This document shows, piece after piece, positions 163-9,773 of a stretch of 26,969 nucleotides of DNA. Numbering within the stretch: position 1 is the first letter of the stretch; every line of letters starts with the position of its first letter. The stretch covers positions 1 to 26,969 of IMG/VR virus record IMGVR_UViG_3300027859_000069. One strand, given 5' to 3'. Source of the stretch: a virus. The notes below the pieces were generated by a model. It saw only the letters and a program-made list of their open reading frames with translations, was not told the DNA's origin and did no database searches. The position numbers and the translations under genes are program-made.

Positions 163-244
163 GGTCGTGACTCCAATGGTTAATAAGGGTTGTTAGTTCT
201 TTGATACGCTGAGTGGCAGCGTTGATTTTATCTAGGGTATTCAT
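83..244 (-). CDS. Small helical protein, unknown function (53 aa)
   Basis: This 53-residue ORF starts at ATG 244, which shares one base with the stop of the zinc-ribbon gene (TGATG junction), a typical coupled arrangement. The N-terminal part (NTLDKINAATQRIKELTTLI) has a spacing that would suit a short coiled coil, followed by a charged Lys/Glu-rich tail with two cysteines. No family is recognised. Its last 80 bases overlap the start of the integrase ORF in another frame, including that gene's GGAG ribosome-binding site. Translation through this ORF could therefore deliver ribosomes to, or interfere with, the integrase start. The overlap is long for two independent genes, so the C-terminal half may be a by-product of the integrase reading frame. 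Confidence 0.5.
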   Translation of the reverse strand: MNTLDKINAATQRIKELTTLINHWSHDLEKENTNIKRSCEQNLSQEKERRCIS

Positions 245-477
245 CATGGCATAAGGTCATCAATCCTTTGTAGCTCTGGCAGTTTTGCAAAGGCAATAAG
301 ATCAACGATATTGTATTCTCTTGTGGTATATCTTTTACCACAGTCAATACATTCTCTTCGCCTTGAAGTGTATGGAATGTTAGCCTTGTTCTTATTGATA
401 GGGTTAGGCTTACCACTCCTGAATCGAGTCTCAAGATTTTTAGTATTGAGACCCCGACAGTTAGGGCATATACTCAT
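244..477 (-). CDS. NrdR-type zinc-ribbon protein lacking the ATP-cone (77 aa)
   Basis: The protein matches the N-terminal zinc ribbon of the ribonucleotide-reductase repressor NrdR. Cys4 and Cys7 form the first CPNC knuckle; Cys43 and Cys46 sit in RRRECIDCGKRYTTRE, almost the NrdR consensus around its second knuckle. NrdR proteins are about 150 residues, with an ATP-cone after the ribbon that senses ATP/dATP. This ORF stops after 77 residues, so only the DNA-binding part plus a short tail is present. Similar stand-alone ribbons occur in phages. It may bind NrdR boxes of host or phage nrd genes, or act as a generic DNA-binding regulator; no reductase gene is in the window. ATG 477 follows the 32-aa gene by two bases. 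The upstream sequence has no clear Shine-Dalgarno but contains TTAACCAAAC and CTTTACCAAC, a variant of the operon's repeated leader. Confidence 0.75.
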   Translation of the reverse strand: MSICPNCRGLNTKNLETRFRSGKPNPINKNKANIPYTSRRRECIDCGKRYTTREYNIVDLIAFAKLPELQRIDDLMP

Positions 478-479
478 GG

Positions 480-578
480 TTAGTACTTTCTGTTGGTAAA
501 GTGTTTGGTTAATTTTTCGTTAGCTTCTCCGATAAGAACTAACGTGGTAGTGATGATAATTATGTTTATAAAAATCAT
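480..578 (-). CDS. Tiny single-pass membrane protein (32 aa)
   Basis: Starting at ATG 578, this ORF encodes 32 residues: a very hydrophobic N-terminus (MIFINIIIITTTLVLIGEA, one membrane segment) and a short polar, basic tail. It begins immediately after the stop of the 56-aa gene (TAAATG) and ends two bases before the ATG of the zinc-ribbon gene, so it fills the gap between two coding regions exactly. That packing supports it as a real gene. No Shine-Dalgarno is visible; expression would depend on coupling. Alternatively this stretch is simply the leader of the zinc-ribbon gene, since TTAACCAAAC and CTTTACCAAC lie inside it. Function unknown. Confidence 0.4.
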   Translation of the reverse strand: MIFINIIIITTTLVLIGEANEKLTKHFTNRKY

Positions 579-1152: not shown

Positions 1153-1164
1153 GTGACTCCTTTT

Positions 1165-1206
1165 GTTTGGTTAGTGGGTAGGGCATACCCTTAGTCAAGT
1201 ATGCCC
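1165..1206 (-). promoter_or_regulatory. Leader module: hairpin plus CTAACCAAAC before the 136-aa gene
   Basis: On the minus strand, a perfect 8-bp stem (GGGCATAC at 1199-1206, pairing with GTATGCCC at 1181-1188, 10-base loop) is followed by ACTAACCAAAC (1165-1175) and AAAGGAGTCAC directly before the ATG at 1152. The hairpin has no trailing U run, so it is not a classical terminator. The same order recurs before the 50-aa gene, with an almost identical stem (GGGCATAG/CTATGCCC), and in variant forms elsewhere in the operon. It may be an RNA-processing or stability element with a translation-enhancing leader. Confidence 0.7.
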
Positions 1207-1222
1207 ATTTGTTTTTCAGTTG

Positions 1223-1375
1223 TCAATAATCTATCTTGTCTAGAATATCTGACACTTGTTTTAGTTGATCTTTCTTTAGCTTTTTAATAGCATCTTTATC
1301 AACTGTATTTTTAAAGTCTGGTTCAGGTGGCCAGTTCTCATCATTGACTTGATTAATAAGATTGTTTAGTTTCAT
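1223..1375 (-). CDS. Small charged protein, unknown function (50 aa)
   Basis: This 50-residue ORF starts at ATG 1375 and ends with TGA at 1223-1225. The N-terminus is MKLNNLINQVNDENWPPEP; the second half is Lys/Asp-rich and probably helical (DAIKKLKKDQLKQVSDILDK). No domain is recognised. Support for it being real comes from its leader: hairpin, ACTAACCAAAC and AAAAGTCAC directly before the ATG, the same design as for the 136-aa gene. It sits alone between two hairpin leaders, leaving no other coding candidate for 1207-1437. Confidence 0.65.
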   Translation of the reverse strand: MKLNNLINQVNDENWPPEPDFKNTVDKDAIKKLKKDQLKQVSDILDKIDY

Positions 1376-1385
1376 GTGACTTTTA

Positions 1386-1422
1386 GTTTGGTTAGTAAGG
1401 GCATAGCTTTTACACTATGCCC
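1386..1422 (-). promoter_or_regulatory. Leader module: hairpin plus CTAACCAAAC before the 50-aa gene
   Basis: Read on the minus strand: GGGCATAG (1415-1422), an 8-base loop, CTATGCCC (1399-1406), then TTACTAACCAAAC (1386-1398) and the ATG at 1375. The stem is a perfect 8 bp and differs from the stem at 1181-1206 in one base pair. The loop sequences differ, so the structure looks conserved. No U tract follows. Confidence 0.7.
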
Positions 1423-1437
1423 AGTTGTTGTGACTAC

Positions 1438-1986
1438 TTAGTGGTTAGGTAGTAAGTCTTGTCTAAGACATACGTAACCTCTAAGTTTGCGAGGTCGCTT
1501 ACCCCTGCTATCGTAGGTGTCCCAGATAGCACCCTCTTTAACTGCAACCCAATGTTGTGGTACATGAACTATGCAAGTCTTAGGTATGTTGTCTTGATTA
1601 AAGTACAACCACGTTGACTTGTCATTGTTCCTGTATTTAGTAAGGGATTTATAAACAACATCAAGTCCAAAGTCTTGAAGTGTTGCGATTAAATCTGTCT
1701 TACTTAAACCCCAGTCTGCTGACTTAGCTGACTGTTTACGTTGACCCCATTGATCGTAGTAGTAACTACCTGCACGTTTGTTTCTGGTAGCTTTGTTCCA
1801 GACTTCTTTGTAGTCAAGACCATAAGCTAAACAGATAGCTCTCGTACCGCAGTCACCATGCCTTTCTTTCTTAGGGTGTGGGTTGCGTAGCATCACTCTT
1901 AAACCTGAATGATGAGAGGATTTTGGAAAAGTTAATTCCATAATTAGATAAAGCGTTGTACAACTGAGTGACTCTTTGTGAGCCAC
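1438..1986 (-). CDS. Papain-fold-like cysteine peptidase candidate
   Basis: The protein carries a Cys-His-Asp pattern like that of papain-fold phage proteins. Cys46 is in HGDCGTRAICLAYG at the head of a helix, His145 in VPQHWVAVKEG, and Asp156 or Asp159 in IWDTYDSRGKR. The 'GDC..RAI', 'H.VAV..G' and 'D(T)(W/Y)D' trio recurs in a common family of short phage proteins with no proven substrate. The longest frame starts at GTG 1986 (182 aa), but this lies in the 3' arm of a strong hairpin and has no Shine-Dalgarno. ATG 1941 (167 aa) or ATG 1893 (151 aa) may be the true start; conservation is only evident from about residue 34. The downstream neighbour is the 50-aa gene and the upstream one is ArdC-like, which suggests a role in early host take-over. 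Activity is inferred from motifs only. Confidence 0.6.
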   Translation of the reverse strand: MAHKESLSCTTLYLIMELTFPKSSHHSGLRVMLRNPHPKKERHGDCGTRAICLAYGLDYKEVWNKATRNKRAGSYYYDQWGQRKQSAKSADWGLSKTDLIATLQDFGLDVVYKSLTKYRNNDKSTWLYFNQDNIPKTCIVHVPQHWVAVKEGAIWDTYDSRGKRPRKLRGYVCLRQDLLPNH

Positions 1987-2022
1987 TCATACTAGCCCTT
2001 TGGTCAGGGCTAATAAGAGTGG
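1983..2022 (-). promoter_or_regulatory. Two-tier hairpin between ArdC-like and Cys-peptidase genes
   Basis: An extended stem-loop. The outer arms CCACTC (1983-1988) and GAGTGG (2017-2022) enclose a 4x4 internal loop, and the inner arms TAGCCCT (1993-1999) and AGGGCTA (2006-2012) enclose a six-base loop. On the minus strand its 3' arm covers the GTG at 1986 and an out-of-phase ATG at 1990. It therefore either masks that start or shows that the real start is further downstream. No U run follows. It occupies the position the leader hairpins have in the rest of the operon. Confidence 0.65.
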
Positions 2023-2038
2023 TTCTAGTAACACATTA

Positions 2039-3034
2039 TCAAGTGTTATCGGATTTGTCAACTATCGGGTTCAGGATAAAGTTCTTAGCCTTTACTGATT
2101 GTCCTAAGATAGTGTTAATAAACTTGGGTTCTTTCCTGAGTTTACTAATCCAGTTCTTAAGGTAACTAGCGTGTTGGTCATCAGTTGTGCTGACTTTCAA
2201 CTCTCTAGCTAGTAAAAACGCTGCACATTCTGTAATGATTTCTTCTTCAGCGTATAGCTCAGAGCCAAATCCACACGCTTTTACTATGCCCTGTCTCGCT
2301 AGTCTTTCTTGAGACCCACTACTATGACAGGCTTCGTGCATAACTACAGCGTAGTAATTCTCATTGTTTGAGAATCTAGTTCTATCGGGAACTACGATCT
2401 CATCAAAGAGTACATCATAGTATGCTCTATCCCCTTTGTGACTGAAGTTTTTAAGGTGCTTATCAATGTAGTTGGTAACTACTATGTCATGCACATTCTT
2501 TAGTCGGTCATCTAGTGGCTCAAAGTTAGTAGCTTGATGTTGTTTCTCAAGGTCAGCTATCCTATCGTCTAGCTTTTTTTGATTCTCAGGTGTTGAGCCT
2601 ACAAAACAGGCTATGTTAAACACTCTAGTAGGTCGAAAGATAGTAAATCTAGCACCAGTCTCGACTTGTAAACCATCAGGTTTGGACTCATCTAAGGGTC
2701 GCTTACCATTGATTGTAATAGGTCTAAGAATGACTGCACTCTTACTACCTTTCTTGATTTTAAGACCCCATTTTTGAGCCTGTTTGAAACCGCACCAGTA
2801 AGGATATTTATGGCCTTGAGCTAGTTTGTAAATCTCAAGGGCTATAAGGTTACCATTTTGGTAGTATTCCCCTGTTGTAAAGTTCATATGATCACCTTCA
2901 GGTGTCCACTCTTTGCGAAAAGGATTACAACCTTTCTCCATTAGTGAGATTAGTGTATCAGCTAATTCTTGTATGCCCTTATCAGGATTGTAAGGTTCTT
3001 TTTTAGTTTGTTTTTTGACAGGTGTTAAGGTCAT
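2039..3034 (-). CDS. ardC: ArdC-like antirestriction protein (ssDNA-binding domain plus metallopeptidase)
   Basis: A 331-residue protein with the two-domain architecture of ArdC-type antirestriction proteins. Residues about 15-145 match the ArdC N-terminal ssDNA-binding domain: 'LISLMEKGCNPFRKEW', 'N..TG..Y.NGN...L', 'WCGFKQAQKWGLKIKKGSK', then a strand ending in VFNIACF. Residues about 180-310 are the zincin-like domain, with zinc motif HEACH (His233, Glu234, His237) and a downstream glutamate helix (EEEIITECAAFLLARE) that should give the third ligand. Plasmid ArdC binds ssDNA and protects incoming DNA from type I and II restriction; phage members are presumed to do the same early in infection. 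The start at ATG 3034 follows CTAACCAAAAC and CTTTACCAAAAAC without a Shine-Dalgarno. It is the largest gene of the left operon. Confidence 0.85.
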   Translation of the reverse strand: MTLTPVKKQTKKEPYNPDKGIQELADTLISLMEKGCNPFRKEWTPEGDHMNFTTGEYYQNGNLIALEIYKLAQGHKYPYWCGFKQAQKWGLKIKKGSKSAVILRPITINGKRPLDESKPDGLQVETGARFTIFRPTRVFNIACFVGSTPENQKKLDDRIADLEKQHQATNFEPLDDRLKNVHDIVVTNYIDKHLKNFSHKGDRAYYDVLFDEIVVPDRTRFSNNENYYAVVMHEACHSSGSQERLARQGIVKACGFGSELYAEEEIITECAAFLLARELKVSTTDDQHASYLKNWISKLRKEPKFINTILGQSVKAKNFILNPIVDKSDNT

Positions 3035-3051
3035 TGTTTTTGGTAAAGTAG

Positions 3052-3081
3052 TTTTGGTTAGAGAGTCTTGTTAAGGACTCT
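3052..3081 (-). promoter_or_regulatory. Leader module: hairpin plus CTAACCAAAAC before the ArdC-like gene
   Basis: Minus strand: AGAGTC (3076-3081) pairs with GACTCT (3062-3067) around an eight-base loop that can itself pair CTT with AAG. CTAACCAAAA follows (3052-3061), then CTTTACCAAAAAC and the ATG at 3034. The 3' arm of the stem runs directly into the CTAACC motif. A further small palindrome (CCTACCTAGTAGG, 3088-3100) lies at the end of the upstream 44-aa gene. Confidence 0.6.
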
Positions 3082-3088
3082 TTAGAAC

Positions 3089-3223
3089 CTACCTAGTAGG
3101 CTCTAAGGAATCGTTAATTCTATTCCACTCATAAAGTGCATCTTGTTTTTGTGAGATATGCCAAGACCTTAAGACAGGTTGAGAGACAGTACCATTAACA
3201 ACTAATAGAATTGAATCGGTCAT
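3089..3223 (-). CDS. Small hypothetical protein (44 aa)
   Basis: A 44-residue ORF from ATG 3223 to TAG 3089-3091. It reads MTDSILLVVNGTVSQPVL, then a Trp/Gln-rich middle (RSWHISQKQDALYEWNRI) and a short tail. No family, membrane helix or metal site is recognised. The upstream sequence has CTAACCGCACG, a divergent copy of the operon's CTAACCAAA motif, 29 bases before the ATG. It lies between the 63-aa gene and the ArdC-like gene, with no better coding candidate in that interval. Probably a real but uncharacterised early gene. Confidence 0.5.
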   Translation of the reverse strand: MTDSILLVVNGTVSQPVLRSWHISQKQDALYEWNRINDSLEPTR

Positions 3224-3264
3224 TGTTTGCACTAAGGAAAACGTGCGGTTAGATTTGATAATCA

Positions 3265-3456
3265 TTAGATTTGTATATCAGGTGTAGTAGTTTGGATTTT
3301 GAAAGTAAAGCCTAGTTTTTTAAGGGCATTAATATTACTTTGAGTGAGAGTACTGTTACCAGTCAAAGACTGTAATGGATCTCTTTGTTCTTCATTGACT
3401 ACATCAACATAAGTAGTTCCGTAGGCAACCCTAGTTGAGATTAAAATTTCAGACAT
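3265..3456 (-). CDS. Small hypothetical early protein (63 aa)
   Basis: A 63-residue soluble protein with no recognised domain. It begins MSEILISTRVAYGTTYVDV and has a helix-like segment near the C-terminus (LTQSNINALKKLGFTF). ATG 3456 is preceded by CTAACCAAACC and CTTTACCAAAAAC, the full A-rich leader, and by two hairpins. There is no Shine-Dalgarno, so initiation probably relies on the unstructured A-rich leader. Second gene of the left operon. Confidence 0.6.
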   Translation of the reverse strand: MSEILISTRVAYGTTYVDVVNEEQRDPLQSLTGNSTLTQSNINALKKLGFTFKIQTTTPDIQI

Positions 3457-3478
3457 GATAGTTAAGTTTTTGGTAAAG

Positions 3479-3523
3479 GTTTGGTTAGAGTATTGAACTC
3501 TATCAAGGGAATTTAACCCTTGA
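3479..3523 (-). promoter_or_regulatory. Leader module: double hairpin plus CTAACCAAAC before the 63-aa gene
   Basis: Minus strand, in order: TCAAGGG (3517-3523) pairs with CCCTTGA (3503-3509) around a 7-base loop and covers the stop codon of the 75-aa gene. Next, AGAGT (3497-3501) pairs with ACTCT (3487-3491) around a 5-base loop. Then comes CTAACCAAAC (3479-3488), sharing its first bases with the 3' arm. The second stem has the same sequence family (AGAGT/ACTCT) as the one before the ArdC-like gene. Confidence 0.6.
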
Positions 3524-3740
3524 AAGAATCTAAGTACTTTTGAGTTACGGTCTTGTAGTCAAGACCTGACAACCATTTATTGAGTTGTCTAGTAGTAGTC
3601 TTTGAGTAGTGTTGCTCAGTTCTAACGTAGCCTTCATTGGCTAGATTAGCTGCTACGACTGTGTTGTATGACCAGAATAATACTGATCCGTTAGGTAGTT
3701 TTGACTCATAAATGTTAGAGCCAACTTTGATTTTGTCCAT
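3513..3740 (-). CDS. Hypothetical early phage protein, first gene of left operon (75 aa)
   Basis: A 75-residue basic protein. The core has the pattern 'FWSYNTVVAANL..G.VRTEQHYSKTTTRQLNKWL'; similar short proteins with a 'Y.T.VA......RT...YS.TT..H/QLNKWL' layout are frequent in marine phages, where their function is unknown. No membrane segment is present. It is the promoter-proximal gene: a sigma70-like promoter lies at 3798-3827, and a CTTTACTAAACAAC/CTAACCACAC leader sits between promoter and ATG. First genes of T7-like early operons commonly encode host-modifying proteins, but nothing in this sequence shows that directly. Confidence 0.7.
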   Translation of the reverse strand: MDKIKVGSNIYESKLPNGSVLFWSYNTVVAANLANEGYVRTEQHYSKTTTRQLNKWLSGLDYKTVTQKYLDSFKG

Positions 3741-3748
3741 TAAAACTG

Positions 3749-3771
3749 TGTGGTTAGTTGTTTAGTAAAGA
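3749..3771 (-). promoter_or_regulatory. Variant leader motif of the first left-operon gene
   Basis: On the minus strand CTTTACTAAACAAC is followed by CTAACCACAC and ATG at 3740. Both words match the repeated leader (TTTACCAAAAAC and CTAACCAAAC), here in reversed order and with no strong hairpin. It lies within the expected 5' untranslated region of the promoter at 3798-3827. Confidence 0.4.
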
Positions 3772-3797
3772 TCAAGTCTTGTTGACCTGATGAACCC

Positions 3798-3827
3798 ACT
3801 ATAGAAAGTGTTACCGCAGATTGTCAA
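3798..3827 (-). promoter_or_regulatory. Sigma70-like promoter of the leftward early operon
   Basis: On the minus strand a perfect -35 TTGACA (3822-3827) is followed after 18 bases by TATAGT (3798-3803), a 5/6 match to TATAAT. It lies about 58 bases before the first early gene. GTGTT and AACAC arms (minus strand, overlapping the -35 and spacer) form an imperfect dyad that could be an operator. A host-polymerase promoter is what a T7-like early operon needs. Confidence 0.65.
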
Positions 3828-3930
3828 CACTCATTCTAATATTAGTCTGACTTCCCTTGCTATCACTAATTAAATTCATTGTTTACATTTAGTAATAATT
3901 AGATTATCTTAGTGTTTATTACCCTTATCT

Positions 3931-3993
3931 ATTAACCCTATATACCCTCTATTCATTCTCTACCCTATACCCCCTATTGATTAACCCTATATA
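3931..3993. repeat. Iteron-like direct repeats ATTAACCCTATATA
   Basis: The 14-base word ATTAACCCTATATA occurs exactly twice (3931-3944 and 3980-3993). Related words lie between and after it, such as TACCCTATACCCCC at 3961-3974 and AACCTATACCCCCC near 4015-4028. All C runs are on the plus strand, giving spaced G runs on the minus strand. Directly repeated words in an AT-rich, gene-free region are typical of origins or multi-site protein binding, but nothing identifies the binding protein. Confidence 0.5.
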
Positions 3994-4246
3994 TTTATTT
4001 TGATTTAACCTATTGAACCTATACCCCCCTACCGATTAAGAAAAGAAATAAAAGTAAATAATAGAATCAATAGACCAAAAACCACACTAAGAATAGTAAT
4101 AATATTCTGAGAGCCTAGTAGTAGCAATATATTTTTCTTATAAACGCTTTATTTTTTTATAAATTGACAAAATTTTTTTTATTTATAGGGGGAAACTCGC
4201 TATGCACGTATTCTGTTACCCTTTCAGATTTTTCTGTCAAAATTTT

Positions 4247-4290
4247 TTCTTAAGATTATCCTAATGTATTCTTAAGATAATCTTAGTGTG
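4247..4290. repeat. 22-bp tandem repeat with internal 10-bp inverted repeat
   Basis: Two adjacent 22-base units, each beginning TTCTTAAGAT (4247-4268 and 4269-4290), match at 18 of 22 positions. Across them TAAGATTATC (4251-4260) and GATAATCTTA (4276-4285) form perfect 10-bp inverted arms separated by 15 bases. A further close copy, AGATTATCTTAGTG, is at 3901-3914 and differs in one base from 4275-4288. The pattern suggests binding sites for a dimeric regulator or a packaging/replication protein. Confidence 0.55.
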
Positions 4291-4298
4291 CTTAGTTA

Positions 4299-4313
4299 GA
4301 GAAACTCTTTCTC
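4299..4313 (-). terminator. Short hairpin just downstream of TerL (weak terminator candidate)
   Basis: GAGAAA (4299-4304), loop CTC, TTTCTC (4308-4313), 13 bases past the TerL stop on the minus strand. The stem is only 6 bp, low in GC, and no U run follows, so termination here would be weak or factor-dependent. The larger inverted repeat at 4251-4285 lies next downstream and may contribute. Confidence 0.3.
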
Positions 4314-4325
4314 CTATACTAGGCT

Positions 4326-7583: not shown

Positions 7584-8082
7584 TTCGGTAAGAGCCGAAG
7601 GCGATACAAATGTACAGGCTCAACCTAATGCTGTTGGTAATTCAAGTATTATCAACCAGAATATGAATATCAATAATGGAATGACAGGTAAGCAACAGTT
7701 TGGAAACTTAATTTGCAGTCAACCCACTATGGCTGTAACTCCTTTTTATACAGGTAATGATGCTCAAGGTGAAGAAACCTATAGCATTAATGAAGGTTGG
7801 GGTGTACAAATGTCTTTTATGATTCCATTAGGAGATAATCAAACTTGTAACGAGTTATCCAAAGTAAAGCTAGACTTAGCCAAAGAAGAACTAGACAAGC
7901 AAGTGCATGATAAGCAGCTAGTTCGTATCTTGAAGTGCGGACAGCTTCACGCATCAGGCTACATGATAAATCCTAAATCTAAGTTCGCATATATTTGTAG
8001 TGATGTAATCAATATACGAAGTTATGTAAAAGCTAATCCTTCTTTGTTTGGAAATCCTTTACCTCTTTCTTCAGAACCTTAG
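7531..8082 (+). CDS. Secreted phage protein with C-terminal coiled coil and cysteines (183 aa)
   Basis: A second exported protein: signal peptide at residues 1-22 (LALSLLCLSLASNSVRA, cleavage before EG). A polar Asn/Gln-rich segment follows (NSSIINQNMNINNGMTGKQQ), then CSQPTMAVTPFYTGND and a helix (KVKLDLAKEELDKQ, about 107-120). The tail has paired cysteines (ILKCGQLHASGYM and YICSDV) that could form disulphides in the periplasm. Proteins with the same order ('N.GMTGKQ.FG...C....M...PFY.GN' and 'C.D.' near the end) are familiar from marine cyanophages; function unknown. The start at 7531 lies inside the previous gene in another frame. The exported, overlapping pair recalls spanin pairs but lacks the usual lipoprotein signal. 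Its 3' end overlaps the minus-strand gene at 8033. Confidence 0.7.
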   Translation: MRLQPLALSLLCLSLASNSVRAEGDTNVQAQPNAVGNSSIINQNMNINNGMTGKQQFGNLICSQPTMAVTPFYTGNDAQGEETYSINEGWGVQMSFMIPLGDNQTCNELSKVKLDLAKEELDKQVHDKQLVRILKCGQLHASGYMINPKSKFAYICSDVINIRSYVKANPSLFGNPLPLSSEP

Positions 8083-8518
8083 TAAAGATCTTTTTAAATA
8101 TTTTCTTGATTTGACCTACTACAGCTTGCATTGCAATAGACCCTGCCACAGTTACAGTAGATGCCACCCCTGCACTAATAACACTTGACGCTATGACTTC
8201 AGGCGATGGAATTGGCATTTCGCCAAAAAAAGGTATATTAAAAGTACCTACAGTTTCTAATGAAGTATTTTCTAAGTTTTTTGGCAGGTTCGTTGGGATC
8301 ACTTCTTGTTTTATACTTGTTACTTCCTCGTCTTGCTCCTCTTCTTCTGAAGAAGTTTTTGCCTTCTCTTCTCCCAAACCCGACTGAACTTGTTCCAGAC
8401 TCGGTAAAAGAATTGGGTCTAGATAAGGTACTTCCGCTACAGGTGGATAAAAAATTGTTTTAGGTGGATTGAGTATATAGTTTGTATTTGGTAGGTTTGG
8501 TAAGTATATTTCGTCCAT
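8033..8518 (-). CDS. Proline-rich membrane-anchored protein on the opposite strand (161 aa)
   Basis: A 161-residue protein on the minus strand within a plus-strand block. It has a Pro-rich N-terminus (IYLPNLPNTNYILNPPKT), an acidic low-complexity middle (SSEEEEQDEE, about 57-66), PFFGEMPIPSPEVIASS, a membrane helix (about 108-134) and a Lys-rich tail. Marine phages, especially cyanophages, have proteins with this order ('Y.LNPPKT.F.P', 'PSPE', helix, Lys-rich end), which supports this strand. It overlaps the secreted gene tail to tail by 50 bases. A leucine-rich plus-strand ORF lies antisense at 8260-8463 and is judged a shadow. Start ATG 8518 has only AAAGG about 13 bases upstream. Possibly an envelope-spanning or structural accessory protein. 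Confidence 0.65.
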   Translation of the reverse strand: MDEIYLPNLPNTNYILNPPKTIFYPPVAEVPYLDPILLPSLEQVQSGLGEEKAKTSSEEEEQDEEVTSIKQEVIPTNLPKNLENTSLETVGTFNIPFFGEMPIPSPEVIASSVISAGVASTVTVAGSIAMQAVVGQIKKIFKKIFTKVLKKEVKDFQTKKD

Positions 8519-8521
8519 AGT

Positions 8522-8647
8522 ATGAAAGAAGCCTTTGCTAAAGCATTAGTGCCTGTAACCATAATAACTTTTGTAGGAATTATGGCACTAGCACCTTTGT
8601 ACGTCACCATGTCTATGATGACTAGACAAATGGAAAAAATAAACTAA
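8522..8647 (+). CDS. Small membrane peptide (41 aa)
   Basis: A 41-residue ORF from ATG 8522 to TAA 8645-8647. A short charged N-terminus (MKEAFAK) precedes one strong membrane helix (LVPVTIITFVGIMALAPLYV) and a Met-rich basic end. Its ATG is only three bases from the divergent ATG of the proline-rich gene, so neither gene has room for its own promoter between them. No clear Shine-Dalgarno is present. It could be a small lysis regulator or membrane peptide, by topology only; no family is recognised. Confidence 0.5.
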   Translation: MKEAFAKALVPVTIITFVGIMALAPLYVTMSMMTRQMEKIN

Positions 8648-8650
8648 TTT

Positions 8651-8659
8651 TGTTATACT
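8651..8659 (+). promoter_or_regulatory. Extended -10 promoter candidate for the capsid operon
   Basis: TG (8651-8652), T, then TATACT (8654-8659) is a good extended -10 element, with no clear -35. It would give a leader of about 120 bases before the capsid ATG. The leader contains inverted arms ACTTTTA (8684-8690) and TAAAAGT (8710-8716). T7 also places a strong promoter directly before its capsid gene; a phage-polymerase promoter could equally lie in this gap but cannot be recognised from one example. Confidence 0.45.
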
Positions 8660-8786
8660 TTAATTAACTTCACTTCCATTTTGACTTTTAGCGGAGTTAA
8701 TTTGTAAGTTAAAAGTGCCAGATACGTCTGACAACACTTTTACGTCATGGATAAGAAGTCTGTAAACCTTTACTATTACTAGAAAA

Positions 8787-9773
8787 ATGGCTAATGCCAC
8801 CGTTTCAAGGCTCGGTCTTGTAAACAATAGTGGAACAGGCTTTGACGCTCTGTTTCTTAAAACGTTTTCAGGTGAGATCCTAACTTCGTTTGCTGAAAAT
8901 AATATTTTCAACGAAGCGATGCACACAGTTCGCCAAATCGAAAGCGGAAAATCAGCACAGTTTCCAGTTTTAGGAACTGCGACTGCGGCTTATCATACCG
9001 TTGGCACACCTTTGGTTGGAGCAAACCAAATTAAGGCCAATGAAAAGATCATAAACATTGATGATCTATTGATATCACAGGCTTTTGTGGCAGATATAGA
9101 TAGTCTCAAGAACCACTACGATGTTAGGCAAACCTATAGTTCCGAATTAGGAAAGGCTTTAGCTCGAACATACGATCAAAACGTTGCGAAGGTAATCGCA
9201 AATGCTTCTAGAGCTTCTACTACTCTTAGTGGTGGTAACGGAGGTGTTGTTCTAACTCTTGCTTCTGGTAATACTGCGTCAGCAAACGTTACTGGTGATG
9301 AGTTAGCAGCAGCTATCTACGATATAGCTCAGACATTTGATGAAAGAGACATTCCTACTACAGATAGATTTGTAGTCTTACCACCTGCTGAGTATTACAA
9401 ACTTGCAGAGTCAGCAACTAGAACAATAGACGTTGACTTTAACCCAGGCGGTAACGGTTCATTTGCATCAGGTAGAGTTCAGCAAATTGCTGGTATGCCT
9501 GTAATGATGAGCAACAACGTTCCTCAATCAAATGTAGGTTCTGAAGTTTCTGGTACAAATAACAGCTACGCAGGTGACGATAGTAAAACTATTGGTTTAG
9601 TTTTCCATAAGTCGGCTGTAGGTACTGTTAAGTTAATGGACATGACTACTGAAATCTCTGGTTCTGACTATGGATTGATGTATCAAGGTACATTAATGGT
9701 TGCTAAGTATGCTCTTGGTCATGGAATTCTAAGACCAGAAGCAGCAGCAACAATTAAACTATCTGCTTCCTAA
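8787..9773 (+). CDS. Major capsid protein, T7 gp10A-like
   Basis: At 328 residues it compares with 345 for T7 gp10A. The sequence has the hallmark order of T7-like HK97-fold capsids: an N-arm ('GTGFDALFLKTFSGEILTSF'), 'FNEAMHTVRQIESGKSAQFPVLG', 'HTVGTPLVGANQIKANEK', 'DDLLISQAFVADID', 'RQTYSSELGKALARTYDQNV', a variable Ser/Gly-rich insertion, 'IPTTDRFVVLPPAEYY', and a C-terminal 'SDYGLMYQGTLMVAKYALGHGILRPEAA'. It forms the icosahedral head shell. It is flanked by its own upstream control region and a strong terminator, which fits the very high expression needed. No scaffold or portal gene precedes it, unlike in T7. ATG 8787 has no Shine-Dalgarno, only an A-rich run. Confidence 0.93.
   Translation: MANATVSRLGLVNNSGTGFDALFLKTFSGEILTSFAENNIFNEAMHTVRQIESGKSAQFPVLGTATAAYHTVGTPLVGANQIKANEKIINIDDLLISQAFVADIDSLKNHYDVRQTYSSELGKALARTYDQNVAKVIANASRASTTLSGGNGGVVLTLASGNTASANVTGDELAAAIYDIAQTFDERDIPTTDRFVVLPPAEYYKLAESATRTIDVDFNPGGNGSFASGRVQQIAGMPVMMSNNVPQSNVGSEVSGTNNSYAGDDSKTIGLVFHKSAVGTVKLMDMTTEISGSDYGLMYQGTLMVAKYALGHGILRPEAAATIKLSAS

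Follow-up and report, generated by a model that had tools for sequence, protein, structure and literature searches.

A putative two-state RNA element family at early-gene junctions of T7-like Prochlorococcus cyanophages

The window analysed here, a 26,969-nt IMG/VR fragment (IMGVR_UViG_3300027859_000069), comes from a T7-like cyanophage of Prochlorococcus that is a close relative of P-SCSP2 (clade MPP-C). The phage family is Autographiviridae, as for T7. The terminase of the window shares 86% identity with its counterpart in Prochlorococcus phage P-SCSP2 and less than 60% with that of every other phage record. P-SCSP2 is a member of the MPP-C clade and its host is Prochlorococcus MED4 (PMC9860041). 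The early region consists of the leftward genes after the terminase, which are small genes of unknown function, an ArdC-like antirestriction gene, gene C and a Zn-ribbon gene. In relatives and in the P-SCSP2 annotation an integrase-sized gene and the RNA polymerase gene come after these early genes. The leaders of three early genes, F, ardC (gene D) and C, carry the element that is the subject of this report, a short RNA with two alternative predicted folds.

The three leaders have the common topology a-hp1-b-a', which was found by comparing the early regions of relatives. Strand b pairs either with a, which extends the first hairpin (hp1) into a long hairpin of ~16 bp (state L), or with a', which results in hp1 and a second hairpin (hp2, state S). 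In the ardC leader of the window the segments a, b and a' are GATTC, GAGTC and GACTC, and in P-SCSP2 they are TCTTTC, GAAAGG and CCTTTC. The elements and the ardC-like gene are located as listed below. The E-values derive from covariance models (CM) built from alignments of the two main types of the element; the input sequences were chosen by eye and the values are rough.

3478–3530, minus strand: bistable element before gene F, with a GATTCT (3530–3525), hp1 (3523–3503) and hp2 b:a' (3502–3486) running into CTAACCAAA; CM R2, E 1.3e-8.
3053–3112, minus strand: bistable element before the ardC-like gene, with a GATTC (3112–3108), hp1 (3106–3082), hp2 b:a' (3081–3062) and CTAACCAAA (3061–3053); CM R2, E 1.1e-14, and covariation.
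2039–3034, minus strand: gene for the ArdC-like antirestriction protein (Pfam ArdcN and MPTase-PolyVal; PHROG 7245, anti-restriction).
1955–2025, minus strand: bistable element before gene C, forming either the long hairpin CCACTC.TATTAGCCC/GGGCTAGTA.GAGTGG or hp1 (2015–1990) and hp2 (1989–1965); CM R1, E 0.0027 and 1e-4.

Folding was calculated with 37 °C parameters. Both folds of the F element are predicted at -15.6 kcal/mol and the upstream stop codon TAA lies within the hp1 loop. The folds of the ardC element are predicted at -20.7 and -19.7 kcal/mol, with S slightly more stable than L, and those of the gene C element at -30.7 and -29.1 kcal/mol. A compensatory change from C-G to U-A at the outer pair of the gene C element was found in one relative, which is weak evidence.

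Most of the stem-loops that the initial annotation had placed ahead of the early genes are real. The z-scores of the leader minimum free energies range from -1.6 to -6.3 against dinucleotide shuffles (below -2 in seven of eight leaders), and the leader covariation it had proposed to look for was found, the stems keeping their pairing through compensatory changes in relatives. The observation that no U tract follows the stems was also correct. The hairpins had been described as one recurring architecture, but they are not of one kind: those of F, ardC and C are bistable, gene A is preceded by a promoter dyad containing GGGCATAC and the first leader of the operon carries a plain 5' hairpin.

Covariance model searches yielded 80 distinct copies of the element. 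The predicted energy difference E(S)-E(L) is 0.8 ± 1.3 kcal/mol (n = 56) and 0.1 ± 1.4 kcal/mol (n = 24) for the two types. Strand b is common to both pairings in 80 of 80 copies and the segments a, b and a' occur in 21 sequence combinations. Shuffling of a leads to the loss of L in 80% of the copies. In alignments of the two main types, 7 of 16 pairs of the L helix have changed on both sides and none of 500 shuffles reaches the covariation score. In a set of 53 matches, aligned to the L model and thus favouring L, 11 of the 16 L pairs show double changes, 96% of the cells pair and the result for the shuffles is again 0 of 500. In the ArdC-type set, covariation is seen for L as well as for S. 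Additionally, G·U pairs are kept at several positions, which points to RNA of the sense strand. At gathering thresholds Rfam has no match in the window, and in four relatives a spurious U2 hit (E 0.28) is the only one. The modelled a-hp1-b-a' arrangement is a well-supported RNA structure and represents a family new to Rfam.

The element has a fixed place. Of the 80 copies, 75 lie between the stop codon of an upstream open reading frame (ORF) and a downstream ATG, whereas 4.6% of randomly chosen positions in these loci are so placed (a simple script was used to call the ORFs). The upstream stop mostly falls between -4 and +1 relative to the element start, which is segment a; in the F and ardC copies of the window it is inside hp1. 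The downstream ATG mostly follows 15–24 nt past the element end. A scan of IMG/VR with the b:a' pattern alone identified 59 distinct viral copies, all 59 of which have segment a in the expected place and 55 of which lie between stop and start. These copies are mutually homologous and overlap partly with the 80, so that they confirm the combination of features and not independent evolution. The same pattern gave six hits in 257 Gb of genome sequence from bacteria and archaea; none is flanked by both a stop and a start and they look like chance matches. When whole records were searched, the matches fell in the early region, downstream of the terminase and upstream of the RNA polymerase gene. In P-SCSP2 one strong copy (36255–36318) separates genes 42 and 43. 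At E ≤ 0.01 neither R1 nor R2 gave a match in P-SCSP1a, P-RSP2, P-SSP7 or Syn5. As far as tested, the element is confined to the P-SCSP2-like lineage.

There are 22 protein families downstream of the element and 25 upstream, and thus no single gene function goes with it. At least 88% identity is shared by 105 pairs of elements that stand ahead of unrelated genes. Whole cassettes precede different genes in relatives; the F leader of the window stands ahead of ardC in one of them (L018). Together with early-type promoters at two sites of the window, this sharing would suit mobile gene-border cassettes, that is, recombination joints that keep expression signals during swaps of early genes, with RNA structure being secondary. 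Recombination alone predicts kept sequence, however, and not changing sequence with kept pairing in two alternative folds. Furthermore, the F and ardC elements have neither a promoter nor a terminator U tract. This explanation is considered unlikely.

The promoter-early stem-loop (PeSL) cassettes of T4-type phages (Arbiol 2010 and Comeau 2014, cited in PMC4503421) are the closest precedent for such cassettes. Like the cyanophage element, PeSLs are structured cassettes that recur between genes of the early region and precede many different genes, some with sigma70-like promoters. The modular sharing among different genes is found here as well. In the window, a sigma70-like promoter is present at the early promoter PL and at the gene A site, but not at F, ardC or B, and a stem-loop terminator is absent. 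In contrast to PeSLs, most cyanophage copies lack both a promoter and a terminator U tract, and their core is a two-state RNA.

The sequence between the element and the start codon is poor in G (5.6% compared with 17.8% in neighbouring sequence). AACC occurs in 61 of 67 of these leaders and GGAG in just 9 of 67. The predicted unpaired probability of the leader is ~0.99 before F and ardC. With the narrow distance to the start codon, these features would agree with elements acting on translation only, in which the hairpins isolate a G-poor leader and keep it unstructured so that genes without a Shine-Dalgarno sequence are initiated independently. The alternative pairing and the tie to the upstream stop are left unexplained by such a role, and the leader before gene C is partly paired (unpaired probability 0.38). 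We regard it as improbable, if not to an extreme degree. The G-poor, C-containing leader is also rut-like. Rho sites were set aside because cyanobacteria are not known to have Rho.

The repeated word CTAACCAAA, which had drawn attention to the operon, is part of this leader. Exact copies occur four times in the window, all on the minus strand (1166–1174, 1387–1395, 3053–3061 and 3480–3488), and neither the other strand nor a search with the reversed word gave a match in the whole window. All four read in the sense direction of the early operon and lie 20–32 nt ahead of a start codon, which confirms the initial observation. For the 4.3 kb early region, chance would give about 0.08–0.12 copies on its sense strand. 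The zone within 40 nt of a start comprises 2.2% of positions and contains all four copies, for which the chance probability is ~2e-7; the excess near starts that the initial annotation had asked about therefore exists. With one mismatch allowed, 15 matches compare with 11.75 expected across the whole window, so that the signal of the word is positional. The word is also present in relatives and its strand bias is kept there (65 sense hits compared with 8 on the opposite strand, which are overlapping window loci, and 13 for the reversed control; the loci are redundant).

Two further sites had been listed. The site at 3749–3757 is a one-mismatch variant (CTAACCACA), whereas 3245–3252 is a poor match within the ORF 3265–3089, although a weak hairpin accompanies a possible internal start near 3221. 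The list had missed the larger hairpins before gene C and a variant, TTAACCAAAC (504–512 / 503–512), which follows a hairpin and is accompanied by TTTACCAA ahead of the Zn-ribbon gene starting at 477. Elsewhere in the wider group of phages this word takes other forms (e.g. TAAACC...GAACCACA), and the topology of tandem hairpins and the G-poor leader are kept. CTAACCAAA is the form that a G-poor, AACC-rich leader has in one clade and not the conserved core. A search of IMG/VR with the DNA pattern TATGCC-N-CTAACCAAA returned mostly chance hits.

A short RNA with two folds exactly between stop and start suggests an unrecognised RNA switch or processing site serving the first genes. The class of explanation proposed at the outset, an RNA-level element for processing, stability or translation, is the best supported one. 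With middling confidence, and on the basis of the folding model, we read the elements as intercistronic RNAs that would determine how the early mRNA is processed, how stable it is or how translation re-initiates on it. Each would mark the border between translation units on the polycistronic transcript. State L, which would form first as the transcript is made, would offer a duplex for processing or stabilisation comparable to the RNase III sites of T7. A ribosome ending the upstream gene would cover a and push the RNA into S, and in both states the leader would stay open to ribosome entry. That a terminating ribosome would cover a follows from the position of the upstream stop at a or in hp1 and from the size of the ribosome footprint. 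If this model is right, the elements probably sense ribosomes terminating upstream.

Host RNase III cuts T7 early mRNA at five sites, at the borders of early genes (PMC4858673), and RNase III genes are present in all sequenced cyanobacteria (PMC10989914), which makes sites for processing or stability the nearest precedent. The T7 sites (R1.1 and others), too, are irregular hairpins that lie between genes on the polycistronic early transcript of an Autographiviridae phage. Like them, the element has a long irregular double-stranded hairpin (L, 16 pairs with mismatches, 96% paired in 53 sequences). All of this would suit plain RNA processing sites, with L the target of RNase III or a similar enzyme that cuts the early mRNA into units and the second pairing incidental. 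A simple cleavage hairpin needs no a', however, and a' is retained and tracks changes in b. Shuffling a' abolishes S in 99% of copies, and in the ardC copy of the window it is S that is slightly favoured. A plain processing site thus fails to explain the retained a', which a fold dependent on the ribosome at the upstream stop does explain. Plain processing is a doubtful alternative. In contrast to the T7 sites, the long hairpin of the cyanophage is shorter, its cleavage is putative and the third strand a' gives a second fold of equal stability. The core with its two equally stable predicted folds and conserved a' sets the element apart from the T7 sites.

Two other known systems share single features with the element. 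In attenuators with mutually exclusive hairpins one strand likewise pairs with either of two others, and the position of a ribosome could decide between them. Conserved mutually exclusive pairings are found here; an end of transcription or a hidden start is not, and the leader is predicted to be accessible at F and ardC. Unlike attenuators, the cyanophage element has no terminator and no hidden start codon and lies between genes instead of in a leader-peptide region. The 5' stabilising hairpins of bacterial and phage mRNAs resemble it in that a hairpin is placed just ahead of an open ribosome entry site, which is clear for the PL leader. Internal cyanophage copies differ from them in being at gene junctions, in tandem and with alternative folds.

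Several observations weigh against a ribosome-dependent switch. Neither state hides the start codon or forms a U-tract terminator, and thus the output of a switch is not evident. The position of the stop codons may be explained by compactness and not by coupling. The long stem of ~16 bp is shorter than the 60-nt R1.1 substrate of T7. Segments a and a' are alike, as both complement b, so that the energy balance partly follows from the repeat itself; the pairing gains of the two states correlate with r = 0.73, largely from the shared strand b. Sense folds are just modestly more stable than antisense folds (56 of 80). In the CTTTC-type set the covariation of b:a' is weak and the arms scarcely vary, so that S is supported there by rare variants and by what the other types show. 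Furthermore, many copies are close homologues and the covariation tests overstate their independence.

Infection of MED4 by the T7-like phage P-SSP7 raises RNase E expression (PMC9692554). Protection from RNA decay or its direction is thus a plausible purpose of the element. Tentatively, and with less confidence than for the intercistronic role as such, the copies may constitute a new class of bistable ribosome-sensing RNA, with several copies per operon, each of which would report translation of the upstream gene and adjust cleavage, decay or re-initiation at the next one accordingly. Little has been described so far of post-transcriptional control in the MPP-C cyanophages, which are abundant. 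Two conserved, equally stable folds at many junctions provide a defined target for probing in the isolate P-SCSP2, and the covariance models can be used to seek such RNAs elsewhere. The element could reveal how T7-like phages keep their early genes in balance in a host whose RNase E is induced upon infection by P-SSP7.

The remaining features of the early operon are promoters, dyads and plain hairpins.

3798–3827, minus strand: early promoter PL, with -35 TTGACA (3827–3822), an 18-nt spacer and -10 TATAGT (3803–3798); 11/12 match to the sigma70 consensus.
3771–3791, minus strand: 5'-proximal hairpin of the early transcript, ATCAGGTC-AACAA-GACTTGAT, then CTTTACTAAACAACTAACCACA; predicted by folding.
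1399–1422, minus strand: dyad GGGCATAG-TGTAAAAG-CTATGCCC ahead of gene B, then CTAACCAAA (1395–1387); from comparison of near relatives.
1181–1226, minus strand: promoter-dyad before gene A, with TTGACA (1226–1221), a 17-nt spacer and -10 CATACT (1203–1198) within the dyad GGGCATAC-N10-GTATGCCC (1206–1181); 10/12 sigma70 match.
1153–1174, minus strand: leader CTAACCAAAC...GGAGTCAC (Shine-Dalgarno-like) before gene A; from sequence, with GGAGTCAC/GGAGCCAC kept in relatives.
475–545, minus strand: hairpin (544–518), TTAACCAAAC (512–503) and TTTACCAA before the Zn-ribbon gene (477–244); fold z-score -2.8.

The leaders had been said to fit no standard promoter or terminator. This is right for terminators: among the scanned terminators no sense-strand site is in the operon, and no T run follows the F, ardC, B and A stems. 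It is not right for promoters, as two sites are sigma70-like. The TTGACA...TATAGT of PL is conserved at the same place in several relatives. In the hairpin of its leader, three of eight pairs show double compensatory changes in five sequences, which 3 of 500 shuffles equal. TTGAC(A/T)-17-CATACT is conserved in about 30 relatives, with the left dyad arm being the -10, and four of the eight pairs of this dyad covary. Alignments of the promoter-dyad and PL sets made by MAFFT with full flanks misplaced the arms, and trimmed sets were used. By sequence, the gene A site is predicted to be a conserved sigma70-like promoter whose -10 overlaps one arm of a GGCATAC/GTATGCC dyad; it would supply an internal host-type promoter for genes farther down the operon. 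No -35 was found upstream of the gene B dyad, whose sequence and loop are near-invariant among close relatives.

The initial annotation had also considered a phage-specific regulator target. This proposal holds some ground at the GGGCATAC dyad, and nothing supports it at the other elements. The gene A promoter-dyad, which also occurs in L050, L065, L086 and others, is possibly an operator or a promoter-stem cassette. Dyads that bind a phage repressor or activator as DNA operators would suit its place, centred on the -10 of a conserved promoter, its nearly invariant GGCATAC arm and the count of the dyad (GGGCATA), which is one to two per genome and in the early region only. On the other hand, the spacing between the arms varies (8 to 10 nt), and the arms of F, ardC and C change freely with pairing and G·U kept. 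As an account of the elements, DNA operators are very improbable. GGGCATAGTGTAA resembles by eye the promoter of the Syn5 RNA polymerase (ATTGGGCACCCGTAA, PMC3950665); this candidate was rejected as a coincidence on the count and early location of the dyad and because one version has a sigma70 -35. Just past the RNA polymerase gene of L215–L221, GGTACAATAAA is followed by a small hairpin before the next gene. The hairpin keeps its pairing (CGTCTT/AAGACG and CGTCTA/TAGACG) and may be a further promoter or processing site.

The Zn-ribbon gene (244–477, minus strand) encodes a 77-residue protein with an NrdR-like zinc ribbon (E 2.3e-7), which is, from its sequence, a candidate DNA-binding regulator of the early region. 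Gene C (1438–1941) belongs to PHROG 3754 (function unknown) and has a very weak Josephin-like (cysteine peptidase) match under the Pfam cut-off. Between the terminase and the early promoter, an AT-rich non-coding stretch of ~500 nt (3830–4325) contains repeated AGGGGGTATAGGGT-like words and may be a genome end or a late terminator site.

At 8033–8787 the major capsid gene (plus strand) meets the terminase block (minus strand) head-on. In P-SCSP2 and the relatives checked, the counterpart of the gene at 8518–8033 and the terminase come after the tail genes in a single direction, and the junction therefore has the look of an assembly chimera or of a private inversion. In P-SCSP1a (OM416763, 34498–36240), unlike P-SCSP2, the terminase is annotated on the strand opposite to the structural genes. 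Thus, the terminase block was inverted at least once in the clade.

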